A program made the position numbers and the translations under genes. 64,000 nt of DNA from Roseibium alexandrii DFL-11. Its GTDB lineage: Bacteria; Pseudomonadota; Alphaproteobacteria; Rhizobiales; Stappiaceae. The notes below the pieces were generated by a model that saw nothing but the letters and a program-made list of their open reading frames with translations, ran no database searches and was not told the origin of the DNA. The DNA is taken from contig NZ_CM011002.1 in assembly GCF_000158095.2 (NCBI RefSeq), positions 3,505,203 to 3,569,202 on the forward strand. Direction: 5' to 3'. Positions within the stretch are counted from its first letter, which is position 1. Each line of letters opens with the position of its first letter. Below are positions 32,724 through 53,609 of this stretch, one piece after another.

Positions 32724-33560
32724 ATGATCGCAGGCTTCAACCGACATCCGACGAGCCACATGCCGAACCGTTCTGAGCAAAAACCTGAGGATTCGCTGAC
32801 CGCAGCATCTGCCTCGCCGTTCTCCAAACTCCAGTTCATTGGACTTGACTTCGATATTGGCAATCAGGCCGACTGGTTGTCACTCATCTTGAACTCGAAG
32901 CCTCAAACGTTCGAATATTTTGTCACTCCAAACGTCTATCATGTAATCCTTCTGGAACGCGATGATGAGGTGGCATCGGCTTATGACGATGCGTGCTGGA
33001 AGGTCTGCGACAGCAAGATCTTAAGCCGACTGGCGTATTCCCAAAAACTGAATCTCAGGGTCTATCCCGGGGCCGACATCGTGCAGGATCTTCTGGCGGA
33101 TCCCAAAGCTCAAGATTTGCGTTTCGCCGTCATAGGTCCCGATCTCTCCCAAATTGAGATGCTGCGAAACAGGTATCCGGGTGTGGACTTGCAGTACATC
33201 CCGTCTGGCTTCATGGACCGAGGCGCACTGGATTGGGAGAAAACTCTGACAGCTACTGAGGCCAGCGATGCGGACATCTTCCTGATTTGCCTCTCTTTTC
33301 CGAAGCAAGAGTTTTTTGCCCAGGATCTGAAACGCCGGGGCAGCGCTGCAGGTATCGGCCTGTGTGTCGGTGCTAGTATTGATTTTTTGACCGACCGGCA
33401 AAAGCGAGCACCGGAATGGGTTCGCGCCTGCGGAATGGAATGGGCTTTCCGTTTGTTGGCAAACCCGAAACGGATGTGGCGGCGCTATCTTTGGGATGGC
33501 CCCAAAATCATTTGGATGTTTTTGAAATGGCGGCACAAATCCGCCGGTACGATGAAGTAA
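32724..33560 (+). CDS. WecG/TagA/CpsF family glycosyltransferase (GT26)
   Basis: 278 residues. GT26 enzymes add N-acetylmannosamine-type, glucosyl or related residues to undecaprenyl-linked acceptors. Family marks in order: YFVTPNVYHVILLERDDEV, PGADIVQDLLAD, FAVIGPDLSQIEMLRNRYPG, the QxxF-type segment CLSFPKQEFFA, GLCVGASIDFLTDRQKRAP and the C-terminal EWAFRLLANPKRMWRRYLW. The start may be the ATG at 32724 or the one at 32760; the first 35 residues are not conserved. A GT4 gene follows after 84 bases on the same strand. Confidence 0.9.
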   Translation: MIAGFNRHPTSHMPNRSEQKPEDSLTAASASPFSKLQFIGLDFDIGNQADWLSLILNSKPQTFEYFVTPNVYHVILLERDDEVASAYDDACWKVCDSKILSRLAYSQKLNLRVYPGADIVQDLLADPKAQDLRFAVIGPDLSQIEMLRNRYPGVDLQYIPSGFMDRGALDWEKTLTATEASDADIFLICLSFPKQEFFAQDLKRRGSAAGIGLCVGASIDFLTDRQKRAPEWVRACGMEWAFRLLANPKRMWRRYLWDGPKIIWMFLKWRHKSAGTMK

Positions 33561-33644
33561 TTGGTTTTGGTTCGAAACCGATCAGAAACAGCGTGTTAGC
33601 AGGATTACAGCTAAGTGACTAAGTGTCCGTCCCAGGAGTTATAA

Positions 33645-34937
33645 TTGAAGAAACCCCGTGTTCTGATCCTTGCTGATGATTGCAATCCGGATTGGCCATC
33701 GCTTCCGGTTGTTGGATACAAGTATGCACTTTCCTTAGCAAAATTCTGTGATGTGACCATCGCCACTCATGTCAGAAACCGGGAAAACATCGAAAAGGAT
33801 CCGCGCTCAAAAGGCGCCGACTTCCGCTATGTCGATAATGAATACGTGGCAAAACCAATCCATCGCTTCTCAACCTGGATCAGAGGCGGCGGGAAGGTGG
33901 CGTGGTCGCTCGGAACGATTTTTCACTATCCGACATACCTCGCATTTGAGTGGGAGGTTTGGAAAACCTTCAAGAGCGCGCTGCAATCCGGCGAATTTGA
34001 TCTGGTGCACCGGATCACACCCATGTCGCCCACAATGCCCAGCTATATCGCGGGCAAATCGCCGGTTCCGTTTGTGATCGGTCCCTTGAATGGCAACTTG
34101 GACTGGCCAAAAGAGTTCCGCTCCGAACAGACACGGGAAAAAGAACGGGCCCGGGCACTCCGGGACTTCTACAAATACCTGCCCTATTCTTCTGCAACGT
34201 ACAGAAATGCCGAACTGATCCTGGCTGCCTTTGATCATACAGCAAAGGATTTGCCGGAAGGCGCGGCCTCAAAGGTTGTGAGCTTTCCTGAAGTTGGTTT
34301 CGACCCTGAGTGGTTTGACGGAACGGACCGGAAGCCTGCCTTTTCCGGAGATGGACCGTACAACTTCGCATTCATCGGGCGGCTGGTACCCTACAAAGTT
34401 CCGGAGGTGGCTGTTCGGGCCTTTTGTGAAAGCGAAATACTGGCAGAGCACAAACTTCACATCGTCGGTGACGGTCCTGAAAGGGAACGGCTTGAAGCGA
34501 TCGTCGAGCAAACAGGGCGGAGCGATAGCGTCATTTTTCATGGTTGGATTGAGCAGAGGGATGTCGGTCAGTTCCTACAGTCCGTAGACGGGTTCGTTTT
34601 TCCTTCAATCCGAGAACTTGGCGCGGGCGTGGTGGTCGAAGCGATGGCATCGGGCTGCGTGAATTTCGTTACCAATTATGGCGCGCCCGGCGATCTGGTA
34701 TCGGAGGGTCGCGGCTTTCGTATTGAACTAAACACTCTAGATGCGATGGTCGCAGGCTATCAGCACGCGATGGAAGAGGCTGTAACCAAACCAGCCGACC
34801 AGATTTCAAAGGCCAATTCAGCTGTAGAGTACGCCACTGACTGCTTTACCTGGGATCGCAAGGCAGCGCTGACTGTTCCATATTACGAAGACCTGATGGC
34901 CGGCCGACCAATCACAGACCGCCGAGATTACTCCTGA
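33645..34937 (+). CDS. Glycosyltransferase family 4
   Basis: 430 residues, GT-B fold. The N-terminal half has VLILADDCNPDWPSLPVVGYKYA and VIGPLNGNLDWPKEFR; the C-terminal half has FAFIGRLVPYKVPEVAVRAF, HIVGDGPERERLEAIVE and FPSIRELGAGVVVEAMASG (E-x7-E). The start is the TTG at 33645 because AGGAG lies 6 bases upstream and no ATG is near. It is convergent with the PKS gene, 43 bases away. It likely adds a sugar of the repeat unit or, given the neighbour, of the polyketide product; both are guesses. Confidence 0.87.
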   Translation: MKKPRVLILADDCNPDWPSLPVVGYKYALSLAKFCDVTIATHVRNRENIEKDPRSKGADFRYVDNEYVAKPIHRFSTWIRGGGKVAWSLGTIFHYPTYLAFEWEVWKTFKSALQSGEFDLVHRITPMSPTMPSYIAGKSPVPFVIGPLNGNLDWPKEFRSEQTREKERARALRDFYKYLPYSSATYRNAELILAAFDHTAKDLPEGAASKVVSFPEVGFDPEWFDGTDRKPAFSGDGPYNFAFIGRLVPYKVPEVAVRAFCESEILAEHKLHIVGDGPERERLEAIVEQTGRSDSVIFHGWIEQRDVGQFLQSVDGFVFPSIRELGAGVVVEAMASGCVNFVTNYGAPGDLVSEGRGFRIELNTLDAMVAGYQHAMEEAVTKPADQISKANSAVEYATDCFTWDRKAALTVPYYEDLMAGRPITDRRDYS

Positions 34938-34980: not shown

Positions 34981-37900
34981 TCACTCAGCCGCAATCCCGG
35001 TCTTGTCAGAGCCAATTGCCGCCGCTGCCCTTGCTTCCAAAGAATTTCTCATTCTGCTTGCCAGCACCTGAATATTCGGATTGAGCACCATGGAGTCATG
35101 GTCTCCAGGCACCTCGACAATCGACAATTCTGAAACAAACGGGGACCAGCCGTTGTCTTCACGAAGAATGTTCAGACCATCCTGAAGACGGCGGCCACCG
35201 GATATCCTATAGAGCACATTAGCCTTTGGCCGGTACAGGACAACCGGCCCGCTATATGGCCGAACCTCATAAGCATCATGCGCCCGCATGAAGGCAAGAC
35301 GGATTCGTTCGTTGTTAAAGCTGTCTGCGGTTGCTTGATCCCCAGCCGCATTCTGTTGAGCTTCTGTTCGAGCGCGCCACTCTCTCCGGTTGCGCAACCA
35401 AACACTGAAAAACTTGGTTTTATTCTTTTGAAGATCCTGCCACTTGATCATCACGCGATCGACGAGCGACAGGTGAACCTGTTCGGGTACAGGCGTGTCC
35501 AGCAAAATGACTTCGGCAACCTCTTCACCTTGTGCAGCAAGCTGTTGGGCCATTTCATAAGCAACGATCCCACCACCTGAGAACCCGCCAAGCATGTACG
35601 GCCCGTGTGGCTGGACCTGGCGGATTTCGGCGAGATAATCCCGCGCCATCTCTTCGAAGGTTTCGTGGGGCTCTTGATTTCCGAAAAGGCCGCGGGCTTG
35701 TAACCCGTACACCGGCCGGTCGCGCCCAACGAGCACGGCCAGCTGACGCAGGTTCAGGATGTTGCCGAACATGCCAGCACAGATGAACAAGGGCGTAGCT
35801 TCAGTTCCCGGACCTTTGCTCATTGTGACCAGATGCACCGCTTCATCGGGTTTCGCAGTTTGTTCGGGTTGTTCTTCCGCAGAGGCATCCCCGTCACTGG
35901 CAACACCATGCGAGGCTAGCAATTCTGCGCATTCGGCAATTGTCGGAGCGTCGAACAGGACGGACATGGGCAGGTCGACGCCGTAAGTCTGGCGGATCAT
36001 CCGGAACAGGCGGACCGCGATGAGAGAATGCCCACCGATATCAAAGAAATCATCGTGAATACCGACCTTCTCAATTCCGAGCAGGTCAGACCAGAATTCG
36101 GCCAGTTTGATCTCAAGCGGGTTTCGAGGTGCCTCGTAGGCGCTGTCAAGGTCCGGACGCTTAAAGAGCTGCCCGTCCTGAGCATCTCGCGATTGCGCTT
36201 CAGCCTCGGCATTTTTTATGAGCAGATCCAAAGGAATCGTCGAGATGATCGGTTGTGTTTCGCCGGTCGCCAAAGCCCTTTGCAGGGTCTCAAATCCTTG
36301 CTCGGGTGGAATGCCCTGCTTGACTTGCGCCGCCAGTTTATAGAGCGCGGCAGCATCCTGGCTTGCCCCGGTTTTCACATCCTTTGCAAACCCGGTGTCA
36401 TTTGACAGGCGTTTTACCGTCAAACGATCAGCTTCAAGTACAACCGTTCCATCCGGCCGCATGACGGTAATGTCAAAACTGCCGAAACCGTCGCCGTAAG
36501 CATTCTCATCGACAAATCGGACATGGGCGATCACATCGGATGGCAGCGGTTCATGTAGGCGTATCGCTGAGTAGGAAACGGGCGCCCAAAGAACGCCTGA
36601 ACTCTTGAAGCCTTCGATAAGTTCCATGGCACAGCCGGTCGCAATATCAAGAAGACCGGGGTGGGCAAGAGTTGTTTCCGTGTAATCTGTCTTGAAGCCA
36701 GCCGGGGACGTCAGGCGTGCCAGCGCTTCACCGCGCCCAAGCGACAGACTGCGCAACACATCCCACCGCGGTCCGAACTTGATATGATGAGCCTGAGCTG
36801 ACGGCATCGTGCCGCCGTCTGGTGCTTGTCGGATATCGGTCCCGCGCAGCTGAGCTTGAAGGTCTTCAAGTTGCACAGGCAGTGGAACGGATTTGAGCGG
36901 ACAAACCAGAGCTTCGGCGTAGACTTCTACCGATGCGGACGGGTCCTCTGTTTCAGTTGCCGCGACAATGGCTTTCAAGGTGCCATGCGCCTGAGCCTCT
37001 AAACGGACCCGTATATTGCGAGGCTGACCGTCGTCCAAGCCAAGCGGCTTAAAGAACACAAGATCGCGGATATCCGGGCGCTGGTCCAAATCCAGTTCCG
37101 AATAGGCTTGCGCGATCAACTCGATGTACCCGGTGCCCGGCAGGATCGCATCGCCTGAAACGAGCCTGTGTTCATTCCACATCCAGTGCTTTTGCGTGCT
37201 GGCCGTGAATTCCAGCCAGCGCGTGTTGGAAGCATCGGTAATCCAGCGCTCGAACAAGGGTCCCTTGGCCGCGCCAACCGTTGTTGCCGTCTTTGAGACT
37301 GCCGCCTCACCCGAAACCGCGCGCGCGGCCAGACCAATATCGCTCCAGATACCCCAGTGAACCGCGACCGTCCTGGGGCTGTTCTCAGCGCTCTTGCTCT
37401 CGGCATAGGCGTTCAGAAACGCATTGGCAGCGACGTAATCAATCTGGCCAATGGGCGCAGTGTCCGTGCTGGTTGACGAGAATAGCACCATCAGATCCAA
37501 TGGCTCGTCGGCAAACGCCATGTCCAGAACGCGCGTGCCCTGAACCTTGGGCGCCAGAACATGCTGGGTATTTTCAAGGGTCTTCAGTTGCACGAGATCA
37601 TCATCAACAATGCCGGCTGTATGAAGCACACCGTTGATTGACCCAAACCGGGCCTTTGCTGCGGCAACAGCTGCACGAACCTCTTCCGGGTTTGTCACAT
37701 CCGCCGGCACGTAAAGCATCTTCGCATCCAGCGCCTCCAGTTCTGCAAGGCGGGACAGTGCCTGGACACCCGGATCCTCACCGGAATGCGTCCGCAGATA
37801 GGTTTCCCAATCCTGCTTCTCCGGCAGGCTGCGGCGTCCGACCAAAACGATGTTGGCTTCGTAATCCTCAACAAGCCCTTTTGCGAAAATCATCGCCAGA

Positions 37901-40900
37901 TCGCCAAGACCGCCAGTGATGAAATATGTGCCGCCTTTTTGGAACTGACCTTCGAGTTGGCCGTCCTTCAGAGGCAAACGCTTGTAGGTCCGCTGCCACC
38001 TGCGGCCGCGCCGATGGGCCACAATCTCATTGGATGGGTTTGCGAAAAGCTCGTCCCACAAATCGTCGATCGTGCTTCCTGCTGTTTGTATGTTCGCAGT
38101 CCTTGCGATATCCAAGTCGATCAAGCGAGCCGAATGGCCAGAGAGCTCTTTTGGCAAGACCTGAACCGGACCGAGCAGCGTCGCCTTTGCCGGATACACA
38201 ACAGGCTCGTCCCCAACGCGCATCATTCCGTTTGTCAAAACGGTAAGGTGCGCCTCTTCGACGGCAGATTGCTCATCGAGCGCCTGGGCAAGATAGAGCA
38301 GACTGTAGAAGCCGTCTTCCTGCATTCTTTCAAAGAAGTTGGAACCGGGCCGGTGGCTCTCATCCTGTGTCAGCAGCCAGCCGTGAACGATGTTTCGAGG
38401 AAAAGGACCATCCTCGAGGATCCCCGTCACCAAGGCGTCGTAGCCCGGTCTGCCTTCCTCGCTGCACAGGATGTACGTGTGCGGGTCAACCTTGGCGAAC
38501 ACATCGCCGCGCTGAACGGTGGTCACCTGATGACCGGCGTTCTTCAACTTGCCGGCAAGCTGTTCTCCGGTGCCTGTATCGTCGAGAAAAACCAGCCAGG
38601 ACCGAGGTTCCTTGTCAGCGCCCGTGACAAGATCTGGAACCGACCGTTTCCAGGCTGGACGGTATCCCCAGTCCCGCATGTCCTTTTGGCGCAAGAGAGG
38701 AATATCGGGCCCTGCCTGACCCTCCCGCGAAACACTGCGCTCGACAAAATAATACTGCCTCTGAAACGCATAAGGTGGCAGCGAAACGCGCCTGGGGCTG
38801 AAATCCCGCCAGCAACGCGTAACATCCGCCTTCAAGCCTGTGGCCCAGCACCGGCCGATTGCGGTCAGGAAAGACAAACGGTCATCCGCATCATCGTCGG
38901 CATGCGGCAGCGAGTTGAACACCTGATTGGCGGTTACGTCCGCTTGTAGCTTGGCCAGCGAAGACAGGGTCTTTCCTGGACCAACCTCGATATAGACCCG
39001 GTGCGGATCTGCGCTTAGACGAGCAATGCCAGAGCCGAATTGAACGGTCGAACGCAGATGCCGGACCCAATACGACGGATCACCGGCCTCCGCATCGCTG
39101 AGCCAGTCCCCGGTGAGATTGGACATGATCGGGATTTGCGGCCGATTGAGCGCAATGCTTCGCAGGTACTGTTCAAACTCGGACAGGATCCCCCCAAGCA
39201 TCCGCGAATGAGCCGCTATATCAATGGCGATCCGGGTTGCATCGATGTCTTTTTCAAGGAGCGCCTTCTGGAAGTCTTCCAGGTCCTCGTCACGCCCGGA
39301 AACAACGCAAAGCTCAGGCGCGTTGACGGAAGCCATATCGAGAGATTCCGGCATCAGCGCCCGGACTTCGGTGTCACTCAATGGAATACTGAGCATTCCG
39401 CCAGGGTCGACTGTATCAAAGAGCTTGCCCCGGAGATGAACAAGGCCAACAGCGTCGCGATAACTGAGGACACCCGAGATACAGGCAGCTGTATTCTCGC
39501 CCATCGAATGGCCGATCAATGCGGTCGGCTGAACGCCCCAGCTCATCCACAAGCGAGCCAGCGAAACTTCCAGGATCAAGATGGCCGGCAATTGCAGGGA
39601 CGGCGTCAGGAACCCCTCGGCTGCATACCCAAGATCAGAGCCCTCTTGCGGGAACCAAAGCTCCCGGATCCGGGCGGCCGTTTCGGGGGGAAGGAAAGCC
39701 AATCCTTCATCGACAGTCTGGCGGAATGAATTGTCTTCCTGATAGAGCCGCCGGGCCATGCCGGGATGTTGCGCCCCGCCCCCCGGAAAGAGGAACGTTG
39801 CGGTGCCGGGATGATCCCCTGCCTTATGATGGGCGAGCCTCTTGGGCTGTTCACCGCGCAAGACGGCAATCGCATCAGCGCGGCCACGCACAGCTGCGAT
39901 CTGGCGATACTCGAAGGGCTTTCGGCCATAGAAGAGCGTTTCGGCCATGCTGGCCAAAGGTAATGCCGGATCATTTTCGAGGGCATCCGCAAGCCGGGCG
40001 GAGGTGTCTGACACCCCCTTCCGGGCCTTTGCAGACAAGAGAATGAGCTGGGGCTCATCGTCAAACTGCACGCTGTCATCGGCGATCATCGGCGCCTTTT
40101 CCAGAATGACGTGAGCGTTTGTTCCGCCAACACCAAGGGAGTTGACCGCAGCCCGCTGAGGACCGGCGCTCACCGGCCAGGGGGTCAGCCTATCATTGAC
40201 GACAAACGGGCTGTTCGCAAAATCGATTGATGGATTGGGCTTCTCGTATCCAAGGCTTGGCGGTATTTCGCCGTTTTTCAGCGCCAAAGAGGTCTTTATC
40301 AGGCTGACAACACCGGCAGCCGTGTCCAGATGGCCAATGTTGGATTTCACTGATCCGACACGGCAAAAGCCGGTTCGGCTGGTGCTTTGACGAAACGCCT
40401 GGGTCAGGGCTTCGATTTCAATCGGATCGCCGAGGTAGGTGCCTGTTCCATGGCATTCGACATATTGAATGGTGTCGGCTTCGATCTCGCCGAGCGCCTG
40501 CGCCTCGATGATCGCTTCTGCTTGTCCGGTCACGCTCGGGGCAAGATAGCCTGCCTTGCTGTGACCGTCGTTGTTGATGGCCGACGCCTTGATCACCGCA
40601 TGAATGTTGTCGCCATCGGCAACCGCATCCTCGAGACGTCGCAGGACGACAACCCCAACGCCACTGCCAAATATAGTGCCACCTGCTCTATGGTCGAACG
40701 GTCGACAATGCCCGTCCGGCGAGAGGATTTCACCATCCTGAAAAACATACCCGCGGCGATGCGGCAGATCGATGGTCACACCGCCGGCCAGAGCCATATC
40801 GGTTTCGCCGTTCAACAGGCTTTGACAAGCGTAGTGGACCGCAACAAGCGAGGTTGAGCAGGCCGTCTGGACGTTGACACTCGGGCCTTTGAGATCGAAA

Positions 40901-41409
40901 GCGTAGGAGGCCCGGGTCGCCAGAAAGTCCTTGTCGTTACCGGTATGACGAAGCAGGAACATGCCCACCTGATCCATCAGCTGCCGGTCACTGCAGACGT
41001 TGAAATAGAAATAGCTGCCCATGCCGCAGCCGGCATAAACACCAACAGGACCTTCGATGGTTTCCGGCGGACGCCCGGCATCTTCGATGGCTTCCCAGGT
41101 ACACTCGAGAAAGTGCCGATGCTGCGGATCCATGATCGCGGCTTCTTTGGGGCTAAGCCCGAAGAATTCCGGATCGAACAATTCCATATCCGGAATATCC
41201 GCTGTCCTGGGGATGTAATTCGGCTGCGCCGCCTTCACCGGATCTTCGCCCGATGCTTCGAGTTCCGCATCGCTGAGCGTGCGCACTGATTCAACACCGC
41301 TTCTGAGATTTTCCCAGAATTCGCCGGTGTTCCGTGCGCCTGGAACACGAAGTGCCATCCCGACGATTGCAACATCGTTCAGGCCGGCATCGGTTGATCC
41401 TATTGTCAT
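34981..41409 (-). CDS. Type I polyketide synthase module KS-AT-KR-DH-ACP-TE
   Basis: 2142 residues. Domains in order: ketosynthase (about 10-440) with Cys184 in QTACSTS, His320 in ECHGTGT and His360 in SNIGHLDT; acyltransferase (about 535-850) with Ser635 in GHSMGE; a structural half and a ketoreductase (about 1155-1390) with YFITGGLGDLA, GIVDDDL (B-type-like) and the catalytic Tyr in DYVAANAFLNAY; a dehydratase (about 1400-1690) with His in NEHRLVSGDAILPG and Asp in HPGLLDIA; ACP with Ser near 1795 in GGHSLIAVRL; and a terminal thioesterase with GFSGGG and the histidine in GDHDSM. All catalytic residues are present. KR lies before DH, opposite to the usual order. Extender choice cannot be read safely (the AT site reads AAHS, neither HAFH nor YASH). 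The TE marks it as the last enzyme. It is divergent from the NRPS. Confidence 0.94.
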   Translation of the reverse strand: MTIGSTDAGLNDVAIVGMALRVPGARNTGEFWENLRSGVESVRTLSDAELEASGEDPVKAAQPNYIPRTADIPDMELFDPEFFGLSPKEAAIMDPQHRHFLECTWEAIEDAGRPPETIEGPVGVYAGCGMGSYFYFNVCSDRQLMDQVGMFLLRHTGNDKDFLATRASYAFDLKGPSVNVQTACSTSLVAVHYACQSLLNGETDMALAGGVTIDLPHRRGYVFQDGEILSPDGHCRPFDHRAGGTIFGSGVGVVVLRRLEDAVADGDNIHAVIKASAINNDGHSKAGYLAPSVTGQAEAIIEAQALGEIEADTIQYVECHGTGTYLGDPIEIEALTQAFRQSTSRTGFCRVGSVKSNIGHLDTAAGVVSLIKTSLALKNGEIPPSLGYEKPNPSIDFANSPFVVNDRLTPWPVSAGPQRAAVNSLGVGGTNAHVILEKAPMIADDSVQFDDEPQLILLSAKARKGVSDTSARLADALENDPALPLASMAETLFYGRKPFEYRQIAAVRGRADAIAVLRGEQPKRLAHHKAGDHPGTATFLFPGGGAQHPGMARRLYQEDNSFRQTVDEGLAFLPPETAARIRELWFPQEGSDLGYAAEGFLTPSLQLPAILILEVSLARLWMSWGVQPTALIGHSMGENTAACISGVLSYRDAVGLVHLRGKLFDTVDPGGMLSIPLSDTEVRALMPESLDMASVNAPELCVVSGRDEDLEDFQKALLEKDIDATRIAIDIAAHSRMLGGILSEFEQYLRSIALNRPQIPIMSNLTGDWLSDAEAGDPSYWVRHLRSTVQFGSGIARLSADPHRVYIEVGPGKTLSSLAKLQADVTANQVFNSLPHADDDADDRLSFLTAIGRCWATGLKADVTRCWRDFSPRRVSLPPYAFQRQYYFVERSVSREGQAGPDIPLLRQKDMRDWGYRPAWKRSVPDLVTGADKEPRSWLVFLDDTGTGEQLAGKLKNAGHQVTTVQRGDVFAKVDPHTYILCSEEGRPGYDALVTGILEDGPFPRNIVHGWLLTQDESHRPGSNFFERMQEDGFYSLLYLAQALDEQSAVEEAHLTVLTNGMMRVGDEPVVYPAKATLLGPVQVLPKELSGHSARLIDLDIARTANIQTAGSTIDDLWDELFANPSNEIVAHRRGRRWQRTYKRLPLKDGQLEGQFQKGGTYFITGGLGDLAMIFAKGLVEDYEANIVLVGRRSLPEKQDWETYLRTHSGEDPGVQALSRLAELEALDAKMLYVPADVTNPEEVRAAVAAAKARFGSINGVLHTAGIVDDDLVQLKTLENTQHVLAPKVQGTRVLDMAFADEPLDLMVLFSSTSTDTAPIGQIDYVAANAFLNAYAESKSAENSPRTVAVHWGIWSDIGLAARAVSGEAAVSKTATTVGAAKGPLFERWITDASNTRWLEFTASTQKHWMWNEHRLVSGDAILPGTGYIELIAQAYSELDLDQRPDIRDLVFFKPLGLDDGQPRNIRVRLEAQAHGTLKAIVAATETEDPSASVEVYAEALVCPLKSVPLPVQLEDLQAQLRGTDIRQAPDGGTMPSAQAHHIKFGPRWDVLRSLSLGRGEALARLTSPAGFKTDYTETTLAHPGLLDIATGCAMELIEGFKSSGVLWAPVSYSAIRLHEPLPSDVIAHVRFVDENAYGDGFGSFDITVMRPDGTVVLEADRLTVKRLSNDTGFAKDVKTGASQDAAALYKLAAQVKQGIPPEQGFETLQRALATGETQPIISTIPLDLLIKNAEAEAQSRDAQDGQLFKRPDLDSAYEAPRNPLEIKLAEFWSDLLGIEKVGIHDDFFDIGGHSLIAVRLFRMIRQTYGVDLPMSVLFDAPTIAECAELLASHGVASDGDASAEEQPEQTAKPDEAVHLVTMSKGPGTEATPLFICAGMFGNILNLRQLAVLVGRDRPVYGLQARGLFGNQEPHETFEEMARDYLAEIRQVQPHGPYMLGGFSGGGIVAYEMAQQLAAQGEEVAEVILLDTPVPEQVHLSLVDRVMIKWQDLQKNKTKFFSVWLRNRREWRARTEAQQNAAGDQATADSFNNERIRLAFMRAHDAYEVRPYSGPVVLYRPKANVLYRISGGRRLQDGLNILREDNGWSPFVSELSIVEVPGDHDSMVLNPNIQVLASRMRNSLEARAAAAIGSDKTGIAAE

Positions 41410-41747: not shown

Positions 41748-44700
41748 ATGCTCGATTGTCTCCTGATAGGCGATGAATCCCTTCTAGTTCAGTGTGGCGA
41801 ACACCTGAAAGATCGCGGTCACCGCATCGTTGCGGTCATATCCTCCAACCCGGCAATTCGGAATTGGGCGACATCACATGGTATTCAAGCGGCCGAGTGG
41901 GGCAACTCTCTTGAGGAAACCACGGCAGAGTTCCAGTTCGACTGGCTGTTCAGCATTGCCAATCTGAGAATGCTTCCCGACACCGTTTGGCAACGGGCGC
42001 GTGTCGGTGCGGTCAATTTCCACGACGGACCTCTGCCACGGTACGCCGGTCTCAATGCGCCAGCATGGGCGATCCTTGAAGGCGAACAGCGTTTTGGTGT
42101 CACTTGGCATGAAATTGTGTCTGGTGCGGACAAGGGCAAGATCTACACCCAAGCTGAATTTGACATCAGCCCCGACGAGACCAGCCTCACCTTGAATGCC
42201 AAATGCTTTGAGGCCGGTTATGCGAGTTTTGTCGATCTCATCGCCAAAGTGGACAGCAATACACTTAACGGAATTTCGCAGGATTTTTCAAAGCGCAGCT
42301 ACTTCGGAAAAAACAAGCGCCCGACGCTTTCCGGAACACTCGACCTGTCCCGGACATCACAAGAGCTTTCGCACCTCTTCCGGGCCCTGAGCTTCGGGGA
42401 GGGGTACGCGAACCCTCTGGTCGCGCCAAAAGTGCGAACCGATCGCGGTCTTTTCAAGATTACCAAGCTCGATTTAGCGCCGCCCGGCACTCCAAATGGG
42501 CCTGCCGGGACTGTTTTGAAGGCCGGTCCAGACGGCGTTCTGATTGCCACCGGCAATCAACCGGTTTTGCTGGACGGCATTGCGATTGGCTCGGACGCCC
42601 CTTTGGGACCGTCCGTTACGCTCAATGAGCAACTGCCTCTCTATTCAGCGGACGAAGCGGCAGCGCTCGATGCTGAAGTCCTAATTGCTGCCCGTCATGA
42701 AGAAGCAGATATTGCCACGATCAAATCGCTCGAGATACCGAGCCTTTTCGGGATCAAGGACGATGCTGAACGTGTGGCCGCGCCAGAACTTCTGCCGTTA
42801 TCACTTCCCTCCTCAATCGCGCCGCAGGACACCATTGCGGCAATCGCCCTGTTTATCGGAAGGTTCTCGGGCCAAGACCATTTTGGTCTCGCTTATCTCG
42901 GACCAAAGAGCGCGTCGCTCGCGGACAAGTTTCCTGGCCATTTTTCGGAAAGCCTTCCATTTCCGATCAATATCGATTGGCAGCGGCCCTTAAGCGCCCT
43001 TTGTGACGACACCAATGCCAAGTTGGTGCAATTGCGGGACCGGCCCGCCCCCCTGTCGGATCTCATCTCCCGGGTGCCTGGGATGGCGCGGCCGGCATAT
43101 ACAATCGGAATTGTTGAAACCGAAGCAGCGAACACGCGGCCGGAGCTTCTGGCCGACTGCGCGCTGACATTTAACGTTTCTGCCCAGGGCAAGGCTACGC
43201 TGATCTTCGATCCATCGCGGGTCTCCGCTGATACAGCAAAACAATATGCCAAGCGCGTTGAACTCGTTGCCGCTGTCCTGTCTGACAAGGAACAAGTGGC
43301 CGCCGATGTCGCTATGATGTCCGCCGACGAGCGCGACCTTGTACTCAATCGCTGGAACGCGTCTGCTACAGATGTGGATCTGGAGATCTGCGTTCATCAG
43401 ATGATCGAACGTCAGGCGGAGGCAACGCCGGATGCTCCGGCAGTTGCCCTGCACGATCAGTCCATCAGCTACCGGGAGCTTAACGGGCGCGCAGATCGCA
43501 TTGCCACGGAACTGCAAACACTCGGCGCAGGACCGGACAAGCTTGTCGGGTTAAACATTCCCCGGTCCATCGAGATGGTCTGCGGCGCCCTTGGCATATT
43601 GAAATCAGGTGCAGCTTACGTTCCGCTCGATCCCGACTTCCCGAATGATCGCCTGACCTACATGGTCGAAGACAGCGGTGCATCGGTCATTCTATCCAGT
43701 CGCGCACTTCCAGAGCCGCTTGCTGCGCCCGGAGTACAGACCGTGTTCATCGAGGATGTTCTGGCGCGCGCTGCCTCAGCAGAACAGCCGCCGACCGGCG
43801 TTCGAGCAGACAATCTCGCTTATGTTATCTACACATCAGGGTCGACCGGCCGGCCGAAGGGCGTGATGGTCGAGCACCGGAATGTTGTCAATTTCTTTGC
43901 CGGAATGGACGATCGCATTAAAATCGATCAGCAAGACCAACCGGTCTGGCTTGCTGTCACAAGTCTTTCCTTCGACATCTCTGTTCTTGAACTTTTCTGG
44001 ACCCTGACACGTGGCTTCAAGGTCGTCATTCATTCCTCTGAAACGACAACCTCACAGGTCAGTACATCACGTGCAGCGGATGACTCCAGTACGGCAGCGA
44101 GCGTCGATTTCGGGCTGTTTTTCTGGGGCTACAATGAAGGCGCCGGCCGCGACCTTTACAAGCTGCTTCTAGAAGGCGCCAAATTTGCCGACGAAAACGG
44201 CTTCACTTCGGTCTGGACGCCGGAACGTCATTTTCATTCCTTCGGTGGACTTTATCCAAACCCGTCGGTTTCAGGTGCAGCGGTTGCCGCCGTCACGAAG
44301 AACCTGTCGATCCGCGCCGGCAGCTGCGTGCTTCCCCTTCACCACCCGGCACGGGTTGCCGAGGAGTGGTCGGTGATTGACAACCTTAGCAATGGCCGGG
44401 TTGCCCTTGCCTTTGCATCCGGCTGGATGCCGGAGGACTTTGTTCTGCGCCCGGAAAACAGGCCGCCGAACAACAAGGCAGCCATGTACCGGGACATTGA
44501 GACCGTCCGGAAACTCTGGCGCGGAGACGCGGTGGACTTTGAAGCCGGCGACAAGACCGTCAGCGTCGTCACGCAACCAAGACCCGTTCAAAACGAGCTG
44601 CCGGTCTGGCTGACAACAGCCGGAAACCCGGAGACTTATCGGGATGCAGCCCGCAACGGCGCCAATGTTCTGACCCACCTTCTCGGGCAATCCATCGACG

Positions 44701-46391
44701 AGCTGGCTGGCAAAATCAAAATCTATCGGGACACCCTGATTGAATGCGGCCGCAATCCGGATGACTACAAGGTTACCCTGATGCTGCATACGCTCCTCGG
44801 AGAGGACCGGGATGAGGTGATGGACCGGGCACGTGGCCCGATGAAGGAGTATCTGCGCAGCGCGGCAGCGTTGATCAAGCAATACGCTTGGGCGTTTCCA
44901 GCTTTCAAGAAGCCGGAAGGTGCGAGCAATCCAATGGATATCGACCTGCAAACGCTTTTAGAAGACGAGCTGGACGCGATCCTGGAGTTTGCTTTCCTGC
45001 GCTACTTTGAAGACAGTGGGCTGTTCGGTACGGTCTCCGATGCGCTCAAACGTGTGGAGCAAATCAGTGCCATTGGTGTCAACGAGGTCGCCTGCCTGAT
45101 CGATTTTGGCGTGCCTCAGGACATCGCCCTTGACCGGTTGAAGCCCTTGGCCGAAGTCATCCGACGTGTCAACGCGGGCGAAGTTCAAATGCCCGCCGAG
45201 CAGACACCGCCCGCCGGCGCGGGCCTCGCCGCAGACCTTGCCCGCCACAACGTAACGCACATGCAGTGCACTCCGTCCATGGCGCGGATGTTCCTCACCC
45301 GGGAGGAAGATCGGGCAGCCTTTTCCAGCATTCGTCATCTTTATATCGGCGGGGAACCGTTCCCGGGGTCGCTGTTGAAAGACATTCGGACGTGCACTTC
45401 GGCCACGATCACCAACATGTATGGTCCGACCGAAACAACCATCTGGTCGTCGACTGCGGATGTTGGCGCTGCTGACCAGCCCATTCCGCTCGGCACACCC
45501 ATCGTCAATACCCAGCTTTATGTACTTGACGCCAGAAACCGGCCTGCCGCTCCGGGCCAGCCCGGTGAACTGTTCATCGGCGGCGAAGGTGTCACACGCG
45601 GGTACTTCAAACGTCGGGAACTTACTGAAGACCGTTTCTTAGAAAACCCGTTTGCGCCCGGCCGCATGTACCGCACCGGAGATCTCGTATGCAGGCTCGA
45701 AGATGGCAGACTGCAATTCCTGGGGCGAACGGACCACCAGGTCAAGGTGCGGGGATACCGGATCGAACTTGGTGAAATCGAATCCCGGATTGCCACTCAT
45801 CCCGGCGTGATCGAAACTGTGGTCACTGCACGCGAAGACAGGGCTGATGATGTCCGGTTGGTCGCCTATGTCCGGACCCGATCCGGATCGCTGGACGAAT
45901 ACGTGTTGCGCTCGGAGCTGCAGGACGCACTGCCGGAATACATGGTTCCCGCTCATTTCGTCGTGTTGGAGGCTTTCCCGCTCACACCAAATGCAAAGAT
46001 TGACCGGAAGGCTCTGCCGGCACCTGATGCAGCGGTTCGCGAGACGGCCCAAAGCGCTTTTGTTGCGCCAGAGAGCGACATGCAGAAATCCGTCGCGGAT
46101 GCGTATCAGCGGATCCTCGGGCTGAGCCAAGTGGGGCAGAACGACAACTTCTTCAACCTTGGCGGACATTCCCTGCTTGCGGTCCAGCTCCACCGGGACC
46201 TGAAAGCGAGCGTGGCTCCAAATCTGACAATCACCGACATCTTCCGATTTCCGACCGTTGGTGGCCTTGCCGGACACCTGACGGACGGTGGACGCGCAGA
46301 CGATCGACTTGGCGAAGTTGCAAGCCGCGCGGCCAAGCGTCGGGCGGCGCTGAGCGCACGGCGGCAGGCGCTCTCTGGGAACCGGGGGTGA
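41748..46391 (+). CDS. Hybrid NRPS: formyltransferase – partial condensation – adenylation interrupted by luciferase-like monooxygenase – carrier
   Basis: 1547 residues. The formyltransferase domain (about 1-285) keeps the catalytic set Asn90/His92 in NFHDGPLPRYAG and Asp128 in SGADKG, with the same 36-residue His–Asp spacing as methionyl-tRNA formyltransferase. Residues about 330-535 look like the C-terminal half of a condensation domain, with no HHxxxDG. Adenylation starts near 545: A3 YTSGSTGRPKG (695-705), A4 FDISVLELF (742-750). A luciferase-like FMN monooxygenase of the MupA/Atu3671 type (about 786-1140) follows. The A domain then resumes with A5 MYGPTETTIW (about 1224-1233), A7 and A8, and ends NAKIDRKALP. 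The carrier serine is Ser1475 in GGHSLLAVQL. There is no thioesterase. The substrate code reads D-I-L-Q-Y-G-M-I-W-K, close to the glycine code. The inferred role is to load, formylate and oxidise a glycine-like unit for the PKS. AAGGGA supports the ATG. Confidence 0.93.
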   Translation: MLDCLLIGDESLLVQCGEHLKDRGHRIVAVISSNPAIRNWATSHGIQAAEWGNSLEETTAEFQFDWLFSIANLRMLPDTVWQRARVGAVNFHDGPLPRYAGLNAPAWAILEGEQRFGVTWHEIVSGADKGKIYTQAEFDISPDETSLTLNAKCFEAGYASFVDLIAKVDSNTLNGISQDFSKRSYFGKNKRPTLSGTLDLSRTSQELSHLFRALSFGEGYANPLVAPKVRTDRGLFKITKLDLAPPGTPNGPAGTVLKAGPDGVLIATGNQPVLLDGIAIGSDAPLGPSVTLNEQLPLYSADEAAALDAEVLIAARHEEADIATIKSLEIPSLFGIKDDAERVAAPELLPLSLPSSIAPQDTIAAIALFIGRFSGQDHFGLAYLGPKSASLADKFPGHFSESLPFPINIDWQRPLSALCDDTNAKLVQLRDRPAPLSDLISRVPGMARPAYTIGIVETEAANTRPELLADCALTFNVSAQGKATLIFDPSRVSADTAKQYAKRVELVAAVLSDKEQVAADVAMMSADERDLVLNRWNASATDVDLEICVHQMIERQAEATPDAPAVALHDQSISYRELNGRADRIATELQTLGAGPDKLVGLNIPRSIEMVCGALGILKSGAAYVPLDPDFPNDRLTYMVEDSGASVILSSRALPEPLAAPGVQTVFIEDVLARAASAEQPPTGVRADNLAYVIYTSGSTGRPKGVMVEHRNVVNFFAGMDDRIKIDQQDQPVWLAVTSLSFDISVLELFWTLTRGFKVVIHSSETTTSQVSTSRAADDSSTAASVDFGLFFWGYNEGAGRDLYKLLLEGAKFADENGFTSVWTPERHFHSFGGLYPNPSVSGAAVAAVTKNLSIRAGSCVLPLHHPARVAEEWSVIDNLSNGRVALAFASGWMPEDFVLRPENRPPNNKAAMYRDIETVRKLWRGDAVDFEAGDKTVSVVTQPRPVQNELPVWLTTAGNPETYRDAARNGANVLTHLLGQSIDELAGKIKIYRDTLIECGRNPDDYKVTLMLHTLLGEDRDEVMDRARGPMKEYLRSAAALIKQYAWAFPAFKKPEGASNPMDIDLQTLLEDELDAILEFAFLRYFEDSGLFGTVSDALKRVEQISAIGVNEVACLIDFGVPQDIALDRLKPLAEVIRRVNAGEVQMPAEQTPPAGAGLAADLARHNVTHMQCTPSMARMFLTREEDRAAFSSIRHLYIGGEPFPGSLLKDIRTCTSATITNMYGPTETTIWSSTADVGAADQPIPLGTPIVNTQLYVLDARNRPAAPGQPGELFIGGEGVTRGYFKRRELTEDRFLENPFAPGRMYRTGDLVCRLEDGRLQFLGRTDHQVKVRGYRIELGEIESRIATHPGVIETVVTAREDRADDVRLVAYVRTRSGSLDEYVLRSELQDALPEYMVPAHFVVLEAFPLTPNAKIDRKALPAPDAAVRETAQSAFVAPESDMQKSVADAYQRILGLSQVGQNDNFFNLGGHSLLAVQLHRDLKASVAPNLTITDIFRFPTVGGLAGHLTDGGRADDRLGEVASRAAKRRAALSARRQALSGNRG

Positions 46392-46401: not shown

Positions 46402-47073
46402 ATGCTTTGGGATCTTTTTCCAGACGGGGTTCAGATCGCCGTGGGAGATCCGCGGGCCGGAGAACCGACCGGCTATCCGGATGAGGAAGCCCATGTGTCC
46501 AGCGCGGTTCCCTCACGCCGATCGGAGTTTTTCGCTGGACGAGAATGCGCTCGCAAGGCCATCGCAGACCTCGGCTTTCAGCCGACCGTCATTGGCGTGC
46601 ACCCCGATCGCAGCCCGATCTGGCCCAACGGTTTGATTGGCACCATCAGCCACAGCAGCACACTGTGTCTTGCGGCAGTTGCCCGGCAGAAAGACGATGC
46701 CCTCTCAATCGGGCTCGATATTGAGCCCGATTCACCTCTCCCCGAAGGCATGTGGGATACCATCTGTACATCGAACGAACGTACATGGCTTGACGGGCTG
46801 CCTAGTGGCCAAAGTGCTCGGCAGGCACTCCGAATATTCACGGCCAAGGAAAGTGCTTACAAGGCGCAGTACCCGCTCACACAGGAGTTTTTCGAGTTTG
46901 AAGATCTGGAGATCTCATTTGACGGCCATGACTTCTTCGCGATGCTCCAGCGCAGTGTCCCGGGCTTTTCGAGGGGGACAAAACTGCGGGGCCGTCAGGT
47001 GATTTACAACGGGCATGTCGTGTCAGCGGTCTGTGTCAACTCTGAACAATTCAAGAAAGGCGCTGGGTCATGA
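46402..47073 (+). CDS. 4'-phosphopantetheinyl transferase (Sfp/EntD type)
   Basis: 223 residues. It transfers the phosphopantetheine arm of CoA to carrier domains, here presumably those of the neighbouring PKS and NRPS. The metal-binding signature is SIGLDIEPDSPL (about 112-123) and the second motif is FTAKESAYKAQYP; the N-terminal arginine region RECARKAIADLGF and WPNGLIGTISHS match the EntD branch. It starts 10 bases after the NRPS stop and overlaps the next start by ATGA, so it is clearly part of the cluster operon. A private PPTase suggests that the cluster can function as a unit after transfer. Confidence 0.92.
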   Translation: MLWDLFPDGVQIAVGDPRAGEPTGYPDEEAHVSSAVPSRRSEFFAGRECARKAIADLGFQPTVIGVHPDRSPIWPNGLIGTISHSSTLCLAAVARQKDDALSIGLDIEPDSPLPEGMWDTICTSNERTWLDGLPSGQSARQALRIFTAKESAYKAQYPLTQEFFEFEDLEISFDGHDFFAMLQRSVPGFSRGTKLRGRQVIYNGHVVSAVCVNSEQFKKGAGS

Positions 47074-48314
47074 GCGGAAGCGCAGACCAGCGCGGAGGAC
47101 ATGTGCTTTTCGTCACGGCTGTCCGGTTGCGAAAAGGACCCAGGGGATTGCAGCTGGATGACCAGACCTGCGCCGGGCTCTCCCGTTGGGCCGAGAGCTT
47201 TGGCCATGTCACCTATATGGGCATCGAGCAGCCCGCCGGACTGGAAGACGATACCACGGTCACATGGGTCGATATTGCCGACCTTGACTGCCGTGACCAG
47301 CTCACGGTGGTTGCGCTCCCGTTCGCCTATAAAATCGGACGATTTTTCAAGGACTACAAATCAACCCGGCAGATAATTGCCGAAAAGATCGCCAAGGCAG
47401 ATCACTTGTGTTTTACGCTCGGATATTTGTTTGGTGACTGGGCCGCCGTGGCCGCTCTTGAAGCGATCAGGCAAAACCGGGACTACGCCGTTTGGTTTGA
47501 CCGGGTCGAGCACGATGTCATTCGCAGAACGCTTCCCGCCATACCGCTCAAGCGGCGGATCAAGGAGGTCGTGACGCTGCCCATGATGGTCCGGTATCAT
47601 CATCATCTAATCCGGCACAGCAAACTGGGTTTGTTTCAGGGGCAAGATACGCTGAAGGCCTATGCGGACTATTCAGACAACCCCCATTGTGTTTATGACG
47701 TTCATACGCAGTCCAGCGATTTGATCAATGCGGCAGCGTTGGAAGAAAAAACCGAACGCGTGCAGTCCGGTGCGCCGCTCAAAATCCTTTATGTGGGGCG
47801 CGCCTCGGAGATGAAGGGCCCGCTCGATTGGGTCGAGGCCATCGCAAAGCCGATGCAATCGGGCGTCCCGCTTCAAGCAAAATGGATCGGCGACGGCCCT
47901 CTACTGGCAGATATGAAGCAGAAGATTTCAGCGCTAGAGCTGGAAGATCAAATCGAATTGCCGGGGTTTTCGTCTGACCGTGAGGCCATCCTCGCGGAAA
48001 TGCGCGATGCCGATCTTTTCGTCTATTGCCATAAGACTCAGGAGTCGCCCCGCTGTCTGATTGAAGCGCTCGTCTCAGGGGCTCCGATCGTCGGTTACCA
48101 ATCGTCTTATTCCGATGACCTTGTGAGCCACAACGGCGGCGGAGCAGGCACGCCGCTCAATGATCCGGTTACATTAAGTGCGACAATCCAAGATCTACAT
48201 GAAAACCGGGGCAAGCTGGTACAGCTGATCAGGGCTGCTGCTGCAGATGGACCCCGGTTCGACGAACAAACCCTTTATGCCCACAGAGCGGGCCTTATTC
48301 GAGAGTATGCGTGA
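47070..48314 (+). CDS. Glycosyltransferase family 4 in the NRPS operon
   Basis: 414 residues, GT-B fold. The donor half shows LKILYVGRASEMKGPLDWVEA, WIGDGPLLADMKQKI, ELPGFSSDREAILAEMRDADLFVY and the E-x7-E-type segment QESPRCLIEALVSGAPIV. The N-terminal half (HVLFVTAVRLRKGPRGL) is less typical. The ATG overlaps the PPTase stop codon (ATGA) and the stop overlaps the next start (TGATG), so it is translationally coupled to the cluster genes. The likely role is glycosylating the peptide–polyketide product or attaching it to the polysaccharide; the sequence cannot separate these. Confidence 0.88.
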   Translation: MSGSADQRGGHVLFVTAVRLRKGPRGLQLDDQTCAGLSRWAESFGHVTYMGIEQPAGLEDDTTVTWVDIADLDCRDQLTVVALPFAYKIGRFFKDYKSTRQIIAEKIAKADHLCFTLGYLFGDWAAVAALEAIRQNRDYAVWFDRVEHDVIRRTLPAIPLKRRIKEVVTLPMMVRYHHHLIRHSKLGLFQGQDTLKAYADYSDNPHCVYDVHTQSSDLINAAALEEKTERVQSGAPLKILYVGRASEMKGPLDWVEAIAKPMQSGVPLQAKWIGDGPLLADMKQKISALELEDQIELPGFSSDREAILAEMRDADLFVYCHKTQESPRCLIEALVSGAPIVGYQSSYSDDLVSHNGGGAGTPLNDPVTLSATIQDLHENRGKLVQLIRAAAADGPRFDEQTLYAHRAGLIREYA

Positions 48315-49438
48315 TGACATGGGGTCGACTACTCGCGATTTTGGGCTGCGGCCTGTTTCTAACCATCGCCCTTGCCGTTTCGGTCGTCTTTCTGTCCAGT
48401 GGACCGGCGTTGACGACAACCGGCTTTCCATCCCTGCCTCAAGACGGTGAGACACCTGCCGTGCAAAAGATCTTCATTTCCGGTCACAGCCTGACCGATC
48501 GTCCAATGCCGGAAATGCTGGCGGCGATCGCCGAAGATACAGGGCAACCAATCTTTTGGAACATGCAGCATATTGGCGGTTCTTCAATCAAACAGCGGAG
48601 CTACGGTGCAGGCGACCAATCACCTTGGTCCGGATACGGTGGCGGTACGGATAGGGAGGGAGCTCCGATCGATGTTCAAGACGAGCTTGCTGCCAGCGCT
48701 TCGGAGGATACCCGGCTGTATGATGTGTTGCTGATAACCGAGCAGCATCGTCTACTGGATTCACTCTTGTGGCAAGACACTCCTCGGTTTCTCCGTGCGT
48801 ATCAGGATGTGTTTCACGCGCACAATCCCGACGGACAGAGTTATTTCTACGCGCCCTGGCTGGATGTTGCGAACCTTGAGGATCCATCTTCATGGATCGC
48901 TTATGAACGCGATGCCTGGCCGGTCTGGCAATGTGCTGTGGCGGGTGTGAACGCTGGCCTCGCAGAGGACGGCCGGGAGGACCGGATCATGCTTGTCCCG
49001 GCTTCGCTGGCATTGGCCGACTTGGTTGAGCATCTGGTCTCAACACCCGGTGGACTACCGGGTTTCAAGGACATGACAGCTGCGGAAATCCTTGCTGCAT
49101 TGTTCAGCGACAGTGTCCACCTGACACCGCTGGGCAATTCCTACATGGCCGCCATAGTTTATGCCACGCTGACGGGAAACCCTTTTCCCGCGACTGTATT
49201 TGCAAACTTTTCAGGCGCGCAGGTTGCGACGCTTCAAAACATCGCAAATGAATTCATGGAAACTTACCGGCGCGAGATGTCAACGTTTGGCGACGGGTGC
49301 GCTGCAAAGGTCGCCCCCTCCTTTAAGATCGCTTACCCTGCCTACACGGAACAACTGTCCCGCAATCACGGCACTGGTTTTTTGAGCGCTCGGCTCCAGC
49401 GCCTGAAGGAAACACTGAGTTATTTGAGGAAGCTCTAG
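48314..49438 (+). CDS. Membrane-anchored SGNH/GDSL-type hydrolase-like protein
   Basis: About 374 residues. One N-terminal membrane helix (LLAILGCGLFLTIALAVSVVFL) holds a periplasmic domain. SGNH block I appears as FISGHSLTDRPMP (serine in GHS rather than GDS) and block V as DSVHLTPLGNSYM (Asp and His of the triad). An Asn/Gly region between (QHIGGSSIKQ) may be block II. Such proteins act as O-acetyl esterases or acyltransferases on surface glycans, in the manner of AlgX-type proteins. I chose the ATG at 48314 (TGATG overlap with the upstream stop); GTG at 48311 is in frame too. It is the last gene of the NRPS operon. Confidence 0.72.
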   Translation: MTWGRLLAILGCGLFLTIALAVSVVFLSSGPALTTTGFPSLPQDGETPAVQKIFISGHSLTDRPMPEMLAAIAEDTGQPIFWNMQHIGGSSIKQRSYGAGDQSPWSGYGGGTDREGAPIDVQDELAASASEDTRLYDVLLITEQHRLLDSLLWQDTPRFLRAYQDVFHAHNPDGQSYFYAPWLDVANLEDPSSWIAYERDAWPVWQCAVAGVNAGLAEDGREDRIMLVPASLALADLVEHLVSTPGGLPGFKDMTAAEILAALFSDSVHLTPLGNSYMAAIVYATLTGNPFPATVFANFSGAQVATLQNIANEFMETYRREMSTFGDGCAAKVAPSFKIAYPAYTEQLSRNHGTGFLSARLQRLKETLSYLRKL

Positions 49439-52745: not shown

Positions 52746-53600
52746 TTATCCCGGTGTTAGGCCTCTCAGGCGTTCCGACCGGCGCCGCAACAGTTCCAGC
52801 ACTGTTAGAAGCGCAATCGAAATCGCCACCATGAGCGAGGCGACCGCCAAAATCGTCGGTGAGATCTGTTCGCGTAGACCGGTGAACATTTGCCATGGCA
52901 GTGTCTTCTGGCCAGCTGATCCCAAGAACAGAACAACAACCACTTCGTCAAAGGACGTGATGAAAGCGAACAATGCGCCGGAAACAACACCTGGAACGAT
53001 CAACGGCATCTGCACCTTGAAGAAGGTGGTAACCGGATTGGCGCCCATGCTTGCTGCCGCGCGAACCAAACTGCGATCAAAACCGACCAATGTTGCTGTC
53101 ACCGTGATGATGACAAACGGTGTGCCAAGCGCTGCGTGCGCCATCACGACGCCCCAATATGTTCCCTGCAGGCCGATCCGGGAATAGAAGAAGTACATGC
53201 CGGCCGCGGAAATGATCAGCGGCACGATCATTGGAGAGATCAGGATCGCCATGATCGCAGACTTGTAGGGCACATGGCTTTGAGACAACCCGATGGCAGC
53301 CAGTGTGCCGAAACCCGTTGCCAGAATGGTCGCCACGGGGGCAATCAGGACCGAGTTGGTCAATGCCTGTTGCCAATCGGGATTGGTGAAGAAGTCGTTG
53401 TAATGTTTGAAGGAGTAACCTTCCGGACTGAGGGCGAGCATCTCCTTCGTAAAGGTGAAGAAATCCTGCGCATTGAAGCTCAGTGGCAGGATCACCAGTA
53501 TCGGAAAGATCAGAAAAAAGAAGATCAAGCCACAAAAGATACGGAAAGTATAAAACCACGTCCGCTGCAATGGGGACGCATAAGGGGGTAAAGCGCTCAT
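52746..53600 (-). CDS. ABC transporter permease, spermidine/putrescine (PotC) type
   Basis: 284 residues and six predicted membrane helices, the first in FYTFRIFCGLIFFFLIFPILVILPL. The EAA-type coupling loop is RAAASMGANPVTTFFKVQMPLIVPGV. The C-terminus ends AISIALLTVLELLRRRSERL. It pairs with the upstream permease to form the channel. It starts 9 bases after the stop of that gene and is the last gene of the operon, before a strong terminator. Confidence 0.9.
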   Translation of the reverse strand: MSALPPYASPLQRTWFYTFRIFCGLIFFFLIFPILVILPLSFNAQDFFTFTKEMLALSPEGYSFKHYNDFFTNPDWQQALTNSVLIAPVATILATGFGTLAAIGLSQSHVPYKSAIMAILISPMIVPLIISAAGMYFFYSRIGLQGTYWGVVMAHAALGTPFVIITVTATLVGFDRSLVRAAASMGANPVTTFFKVQMPLIVPGVVSGALFAFITSFDEVVVVLFLGSAGQKTLPWQMFTGLREQISPTILAVASLMVAISIALLTVLELLRRRSERLRGLTPG

Positions 53601-53609
53601 ATCCGTCTC

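Follow-up and report, generated by a model that had tools for sequence, protein, structure and literature searches.

A gene at positions 41748-46391 (plus strand) of a 64,000-nucleotide stretch of Roseibium alexandrii DFL-11 (contig NZ_CM011002.1, positions 3,505,203 to 3,569,202; hereafter the window, whose numbering is used throughout) encodes a nonribosomal peptide synthetase (NRPS) that is best explained as a starter: of two proteins forming a hybrid assembly line it would be the one that initiates, and the other is an adjoining type I polyketide synthase (PKS). The parts of this line are each known from other systems; their order of glycine loading, formyl capping, alpha-oxidation and PKS extension predicts an unusual starter unit.

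In LgrA, the initiation module of linear gramicidin synthesis, a formyltransferase (FT) is followed by an adenylation (A) domain and a peptidyl carrier protein (PCP) domain, and LgrA is the best sequence match of the window protein in the PDB (761.6 bits). It has no luciferase-like monooxygenase (LLM) insert, and supplies a peptide line rather than a PKS. A flavin monooxygenase (MOx) between motifs A4 and A5 of a glycine A domain with the same type of specificity code is found in the A-MOx modules of myxothiazol and melithiazol synthesis. Modules of this type go by the names MtaG and MelG, and are late modules with a condensation (C) domain; the window protein, by contrast, keeps only the C-terminal lobe of a condensation domain, behind the FT. 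The closest solved structure to the window LLM is the OX domain of PuwE from puwainaphycin synthesis (PDB entry 6ket; 47% identity, template modelling (TM) score 0.91 on the target). This domain differs in its placement between PKS and NRPS modules and in its proposed action on the fatty acyl chain, and the portion of the source drawn on here proposes that it helps to make a 2-hydroxy acyl product (PMC4219810). N-formylglycine as a PKS starter is known from oxazolomycin and conglobatin (PMC4979870, PMC4504003), where the loading modules OzmO and CongA consist of an FT, a glycine A domain and a PCP; the excerpts of these accounts used here mention no monooxygenase in the A domain, and name a partner, OzmP/CongE, for oxazole formation. 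In the open-licence PubMed Central (PMC) literature we found no published characterisation or product of an FT-A-LLM architecture; the relevant part of PMC554113 merely counts luciferase-like domains per genome, and describes no such architecture.

Architecture of the NRPS

The gene is a single uninterrupted reading frame of 1547 codons. Domain searches, homologues and alignment give the predicted order FT - C' - A(n) - LLM - A(c) - PCP for its product of 1547 amino acids (aa), with all parts on the plus strand. The FT domain with its C-terminal subdomain spans residues 1 to about 300 (41748-42647), as judged from Pfam (Formyl_trans_N, residues 50-163), the AlphaFold model and fold matches, and contains the triad N90, H92 and D128. 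It is followed by C', a C-terminal condensation lobe without the HHxxxDG lobe (residues 335-546, 42750-43385), and by the first part of a glycine-type A domain with motifs A3 and A4 (43389-44102; Pfam AMP-binding from residue 554). The inserted LLM (44112-45158; Bac_luciferase, residues 804-1049) is recognised by NCBIfam, by comparison with PuwE and by structure match; it corresponds to TIGR04020 (residues 789-1137) at 469.7 bits, against a curated cutoff of 244.45, and sits between A4 and A5 as in MtaG/MelG-type modules. Stretches of the LLM are conserved with PuwE, and we regard it as a flavin monooxygenase predicted to be of the FMN (flavin mononucleotide) type. The second part of the A domain, with A5 to A10, follows (45186-46016; residues 1147-1359 and AMP-binding_C at 1343-1417), and the PCP carries the motif LGGHSLLA with Ser1475 (46092-46280; PP-binding, residues 1449-1511).

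A first-pass annotation, made from the sequence alone, had already described an FT, a condensation-like stretch lacking HHxxxDG, a split A domain, a monooxygenase within it and a carrier, and had likened the FT start to that of linear gramicidin synthetase. Pfam, NCBIfam and hhalign bear out this order, and the LgrA-like start has sequence support. The same annotation had considered whether the insert might be an assembly join of two genes. We found 1427 homologues; all of the best 120 carry Formyl_trans_N, Bac_luciferase and AMP-binding in precomputed Pfam annotation, at identities of 51-98%, and among them one partial protein lacks the carrier and one lacks AMP-binding_C. A genome scan limited to the best 80 of 586 relatives yielded 54 FT+LLM loci, and at 54/54 the FT and LLM lie in the same open frame. 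The gene is furthermore intact in four genomes of the genus. An assembly join or chance fusion is ruled out by these observations, and the homologue listing and genome scan likewise reject a rare oddity: the combination had been called unusual, and the 54 loci, which come from several phyla, speak against rarity.

The motif alignment has 50 rows, one for the window protein and one for each of 49 FT+LLM loci out of the 54; three loci on short contigs (L007, L021, L028) and two where an antisense open reading frame (ORF) had been called (L042, L043) were left out. The N-H-D triad named in the first-pass annotation is kept in 49/50 rows, and an inactive FT as a family feature is rejected on this ground. 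AlphaFold models residues 1-546 with a mean predicted local distance difference test (pLDDT) of 93.9 and a predicted TM score (pTM) of 0.90 from a 47-row alignment, and a structure search places residues 1-298 with methionyl-tRNA formyltransferase, ArnA and the hydrolase domains of formyl-tetrahydrofolate dehydrogenase. The same search with residues 1-546 was uninformative on C', since nearly all of its matches were FT folds.

For C', the profile of residues 335-546 (50 rows) was compared with a condensation profile for which 15 chosen proteins supplied 23 stretches with HHxxxDG. hhalign returned a probability of 99.3% (E 3.8e-19), with C' aligned to template columns 214-471 of 499; HHxxxDG lies at about column 136, counted on the 484-column consensus. 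The condensation-like stretch is thus real, and is the C-terminal lobe of a condensation domain; a functional condensation domain ahead of A-PCP is absent. Such a domain, which belongs to the MtaG/MelG type, precedes the A domain in complete form in L040, L050 and L056, three proteins with a related LLM and no FT. In an LLM tree of 81 rows (two genomes are counted twice, L089/L136 and L090/L137), 66 FT rows fall inside a supported group of 68 (98/92), and the FT label requires 3 changes against 14.0 in shuffles. Two further rows complete the group: L038, truncated N-terminally at a contig end, and the C-A-LLM protein L050, which pairs with L029, itself carrying an FT. The simplest reading of this tree is a single swap of an FT for the catalytic condensation lobe, followed by reversal or replacement. 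The FT occupies the position of that lobe, as though a starter had been made out of a C-A-MOx-PCP module like MtaG, and the NRPS may show how an elongation-type module turns initiating when half a condensation domain is exchanged.

The substrate of the A domain is probably glycine. The specificity code reads DILQYGMIWK (D743, I744 and L747 in the first A part; Q1173, Y1199, G1201, M1224, I1232, W1233 and K1417), with the positions assigned by eye on the GrsA numbering. One study reports that its four MOX-bearing Gly-activating domains all have the code DILQLGMIWK and that MOX cleaves the Gly backbone (PMC12283262); by these positions the window code is one residue off. The code starts with DILQ in 50/50 rows of our alignment, and of the 49 rows that are complete, 7 have exactly DILQLGMIWK. 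The second half of the protein was modelled from a 34-row alignment with a mean pLDDT of 84.9 and matches NRPS modules; domain placement in this model is uncertain because the pTM is 0.54.

The partner PKS and the proposed starter unit

The NRPS had been taken for a single stand-alone module. This is wrong, because a PKS adjoins it and the two form a conserved pair, which, like the polysaccharide genes treated below, had been overlooked. The PKS (34981-41409, minus strand; 2142 aa) has the predicted composition KS-AT-KR-DH-ACP-TE (ketosynthase, acyltransferase, ketoreductase, dehydratase, acyl carrier protein, thioesterase), from Pfam, motif checks and homologue alignment. A PKS adjoins the NRPS at 50/54 FT+LLM loci, upstream on the same strand in 34, downstream on the same strand in 13 and on the opposite strand in 3; where it is missing, three loci (L007, L021, L063) lie at contig ends and L026 is a true exception. 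Among 385 alphaproteobacterial genomes, drawn evenly and including that of R. alexandrii, the full-length NRPS occurs in 7 and a PKS match in 18, and the whole PKS is covered in exactly the 7 NRPS genomes, adjacent in each (the class-wide NRPS and PKS searches, and the genus search below, were limited to E 1e-150). Distances among LLM sequences correlate with those among KS sequences across 55 loci (r 0.91; 0 of 2000 permutations as high), as do those of FT and KS (r 0.81), with L136 and L137 left out.

Catalytic positions of the PKS are largely kept in an alignment of 48 rows. For the KS, the Cys and both His are present in 44 (4 gaps), the AT Ser in 45 (3 gaps), the KR Ser and Tyr in 48, the DH His in 48, the DH Asp in 47 (1 gap) and the carrier Ser in 47 (1 gap); the TE Ser is present in 44 (2 Cys, 2 gaps) and the TE His in 46 (1 Glu, 1 gap). 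In L031 (Acidimicrobiales) the PKS has no TE and the next gene encodes a C-A-PCP protein, opening with a condensation domain, a layout as expected if the NRPS hands the chain to the PKS, and the PKS in turn to a further module. The longer span of the 6.6-kb matches in Rhodobacteraceae, for which an extra domain had been considered, is made up of the PKS carrier domain and a glycosyltransferase family 2 (GT2) gene between PKS and NRPS.

Architecture, motifs, the glycine-type code, the C-lobe remnant, the PKS pairing and the polysaccharide context are read from sequence, and from these we infer the order and chemistry of the steps, the product and its use. The carriers would be armed by a 4'-phosphopantetheinyl transferase (PPTase), and the A domain would put glycine on the PCP. 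The FT would then cap glycyl-PCP to N-formyl-glycyl-S-PCP, as proposed for OzmO/CongA, and the built-in monooxygenase would hydroxylate the alpha carbon to give N-formyl-alpha-hydroxyglycyl-S-PCP; alternatively, collapse of the carbinolamide may yield glyoxylyl-S-PCP and formamide. This sequence is suggested by the glycine-MOX code, the known N-formylglycine starters and the PuwE OX domain taken together. A purpose for the formyl group would lie in the greater stability of N-acylated carbinolamines compared with free alpha-hydroxyglycine. The PKS would condense the starter with an extender unit, reduce and dehydrate it in one or more cycles, and its product would be released or transferred by the TE. 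In Alphaproteobacteria the product would most likely become an acyl or amide decoration, or a partner, of the exopolysaccharide that the neighbouring genes produce. In evolutionary terms, the starter would go back to an MtaG-like C-A-MOx-PCP module in which an FT replaced the catalytic condensation lobe.

The first-pass annotation had proposed that the substrate is loaded, formylated and oxidised on one carrier. Of this, motifs that serve to load the substrate, formylate it and attach it to a carrier are conserved, and that formylation and oxidation take place is what we infer; the observation of the NRPS is confirmed and its interpretation partly supported.

Polysaccharide genes and competing explanations

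Exopolysaccharide genes on both strands occupy 22487-34937 of the window, directly before the PKS gene. By Pfam and NCBIfam they encode a Wzy-like protein (22487-23854), an export protein (Wza; 24038-25339), a Wzz-like protein (25346-26917), glycosyltransferases (GTs; 26914-29219), a methyltransferase (29308-29955, minus strand), a GT2 (30088-31137, minus strand), a flippase of the Wzx type (31073-32428, minus strand), a WecG-type GT (32724-33560) and an EpsH-like GT (33645-34937). On the other side of the pair, a PPTase gene (46402-47073, Pfam) begins 10 bases past the NRPS gene; it overlaps by four bases with a GT4-type glycosyltransferase gene (47070-48314, Pfam), which in turn overlaps by four bases with the gene of a probably exported, SGNH-hydrolase-like protein (48311-49438), all on the plus strand. 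The last has no Pfam or NCBIfam match, and was recognised by eye from GHSL and DxxH blocks that are also seen in proteins of Agrobacterium sp. AGB01 and of 11 Rhodobacteraceae loci.

Eleven window genes served as polysaccharide probes. They were run against 38 alphaproteobacterial pair loci out of 40, each 20-27 kb (L028 and L030 were omitted, their contigs being short), and against 38 control stretches of 20 kb each from six genomes. At least one polysaccharide-type gene was found at 34/38 pair loci, two or more at 30, and none in the controls (0/38), which suggests polysaccharide decoration in Alphaproteobacteria. The probes also matched in 6/8 further stretches, each cut around the NRPS gene. 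In 23 loci a GT2 gene separates the PKS from the NRPS, and the PPTase family occurs in 24/51 clustered loci. Outside the Alphaproteobacteria the link of the pair to polysaccharide genes is weak. The window-gene probes miss some glycosyltransferases that Pfam finds (L019, L067).

Taken as a whole, the model in which glycyl-PCP is N-formylated, alpha-oxidised and extended by the PKS, and the product in Alphaproteobacteria decorates or partners an exopolysaccharide, is the one we lean towards, with modest confidence. Several observations weigh against it. The FT Asp is absent in 1/50 rows. On the Paracoccus marcusii plasmid pCP157_02 (L140, 10925-15516) the annotation sets the FT apart in its own gene, which overlaps the start of the A-LLM-PCP gene. 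L026, from a Myxococcota metagenome-assembled genome (MAG), has an FT-A-LLM-PCP protein, but the 10 kb to each side of it hold no PKS. The two genes are not everywhere in collinear order, because 34 loci have the PKS upstream, and the correlation of LLM and KS distances could also arise from shared ancestry alone. Canonical DH (HxxxGxxxxP), KR (GGxGxxG) and AT specificity patterns are unmatched in the window PKS, whose DH carries one extra residue between His and Gly, so that full reduction and dehydration are not assured. Finally, no polysaccharide probe matched at 9/11 loci outside the Alphaproteobacteria (2/11 matched), one of the nine being L019, where Pfam finds a GT2 gene between NRPS and PKS. 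Polysaccharide-type genes occur near the FT-A-LLM-PCP gene of L026, and in three Paracoccus records the matches begin only at residue 372 of the NRPS.

The nine loci without a probe match would suit a pair that makes a free diffusible molecule (a signal, antibiotic or metallophore) and stays near polysaccharide genes through joint shuffling on accessory replicons. That the NRPS is found in plasmid records, some of them very large replicons, points the same way, as does the TE at the end of the PKS, a domain that usually frees an acid or lactone. Yet polysaccharide genes recur by the pair in Rhizobiales and Rhodobacteraceae, glycosyltransferase genes overlap or abut it (window 46402-49438, and the GT2 between PKS and NRPS), and a plasmid of Aminobacter carries nearly the gene set of the window by annotation, which leaves a free product rather unlikely in our estimate. 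A further alternative is that the FT is decorative or formylates a target other than glycyl-PCP, such as an amino sugar of the polysaccharide. Among its closest folds are ArnA, WbkC and QdtF, which are sugar formyltransferases, polysaccharide genes adjoin, and in P. marcusii the FT is annotated as a gene of its own; but the FT shares a frame with the LLM at every locus of the scan, even where no polysaccharide gene was found, and its distances follow those of the KS, so that we hold another target to be quite improbable.

The two readings of the oxidation step differ in what reaches the PKS. If the monooxygenase cleaved the glycine unit, the starter would be glyoxylyl-S-PCP, and the formyl group a sacrificial cap lost as formamide. 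This would fit the FT holding the place of the domain that acylates the glycine nitrogen in a C-A-LLM module. The sequence, however, gives no means to tell hydroxylation from cleavage, and a formyl group spent to discard a nitrogen would be costly; we consider cleavage unlikely. Beside the preferred model of hydroxylation and extension we tentatively put a broader proposition, about which we are more doubtful than confident: across phyla, formylation would allow glycine alpha-oxidation to be used where a chain begins, with the formyl group substituting for the acyl chain to make a carbinolamide or glyoxylyl starter, and the alphaproteobacterial exopolysaccharide would incorporate a short reactive acyl unit through genes that are partly plasmid-borne. 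If the link to exopolysaccharide is true, some cryptic marine 'NRPS-like/T1PKS' clusters, in exopolysaccharide loci of Hyphomicrobiales and Rhodobacteraceae, would modify surface polymers and not be antibiotic producers.

Distribution and further neighbouring genes

The NRPS-PKS family appears to be widespread across several bacterial phyla, yet patchy. Alphaproteobacteria aside, pair loci occur in Comamonadaceae, Planctomycetota, Chloroflexota, Acidimicrobiales, Acanthopleuribacter, Salinivenus and a Deltaproteobacterium MAG. The patchiness follows from the 7/385 genomes of the class and from the genus itself, where the NRPS is present in 4/37 genomes searched. At least 80% of the NRPS is covered in 12 PLSDB records. 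Of 686 matching plasmid records, 9 were examined; 7 carry listed features and two none. In 7/7 of these annotated records the PKS is adjacent and glycosyl- or sugar-transferase genes are nearby, and a PPTase is listed in 5/7. The Aminobacter niigataensis plasmid paAMD1 is annotated with PKS, NRPS, PPTase, GT, GH9 (glycoside hydrolase family 9), O-antigen ligase, export protein, flippase and further GTs, the gene set likened above to that of the window.

Some of these clusters may have been recorded before. An NRPS-like/T1PKS hybrid was reported in all four cultivated members of Roseibaca and in 18/37 species, with low similarity to known clusters (printed as '>8%'), under a cluster label and with no product named in the part of the paper available (PMC10584327). 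L034 is Roseibaca domitiana V10, a strain of that study, and has the same NRPS-PKS pair, so that the reported hybrid is presumably the same cluster. A PKS (Inhi_1972) and an NRPS (Inhi_1974) are named in P. inhibens (PMC4062626) and are possibly the same pair; a hybrid cluster is also reported on P. marcusii pCP157_02 (PMC8273931), the plasmid of the L140 record. The portions of these three papers used here give no mechanism or product.

A siderophore cluster, by analogy with Atu3671/fabrubactin, is not supported: among the chosen non-overlapping ORFs scanned between 0.6 and 61 kb, a selection rather than every ORF, no Pfam family for siderophore uptake or chelators was found. An ABC transporter operon with unassigned substrate (52746-57280) lies beside a regulator with HTH_17 and PBP_like domains (57740-58630), with no link to the NRPS seen. 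The gene of a GH9-type hydrolase (19655-22400) appears to be divided between two minus-strand ORFs that overlap and differ in frame (21354-22400 and 19655-21544). Its relatives are one ORF in L001 (790 aa, at the locus edge) and on the Aminobacter plasmid (2643 bp), and the interruption may be a genuine frameshift, a divided gene or an error in the sequence, which are indistinguishable here. Finally, dnaA, dnaN, a recF-like gene and gyrB follow one another at 6564-13086, and this row suggests that the window possibly lies near the chromosome replication origin.
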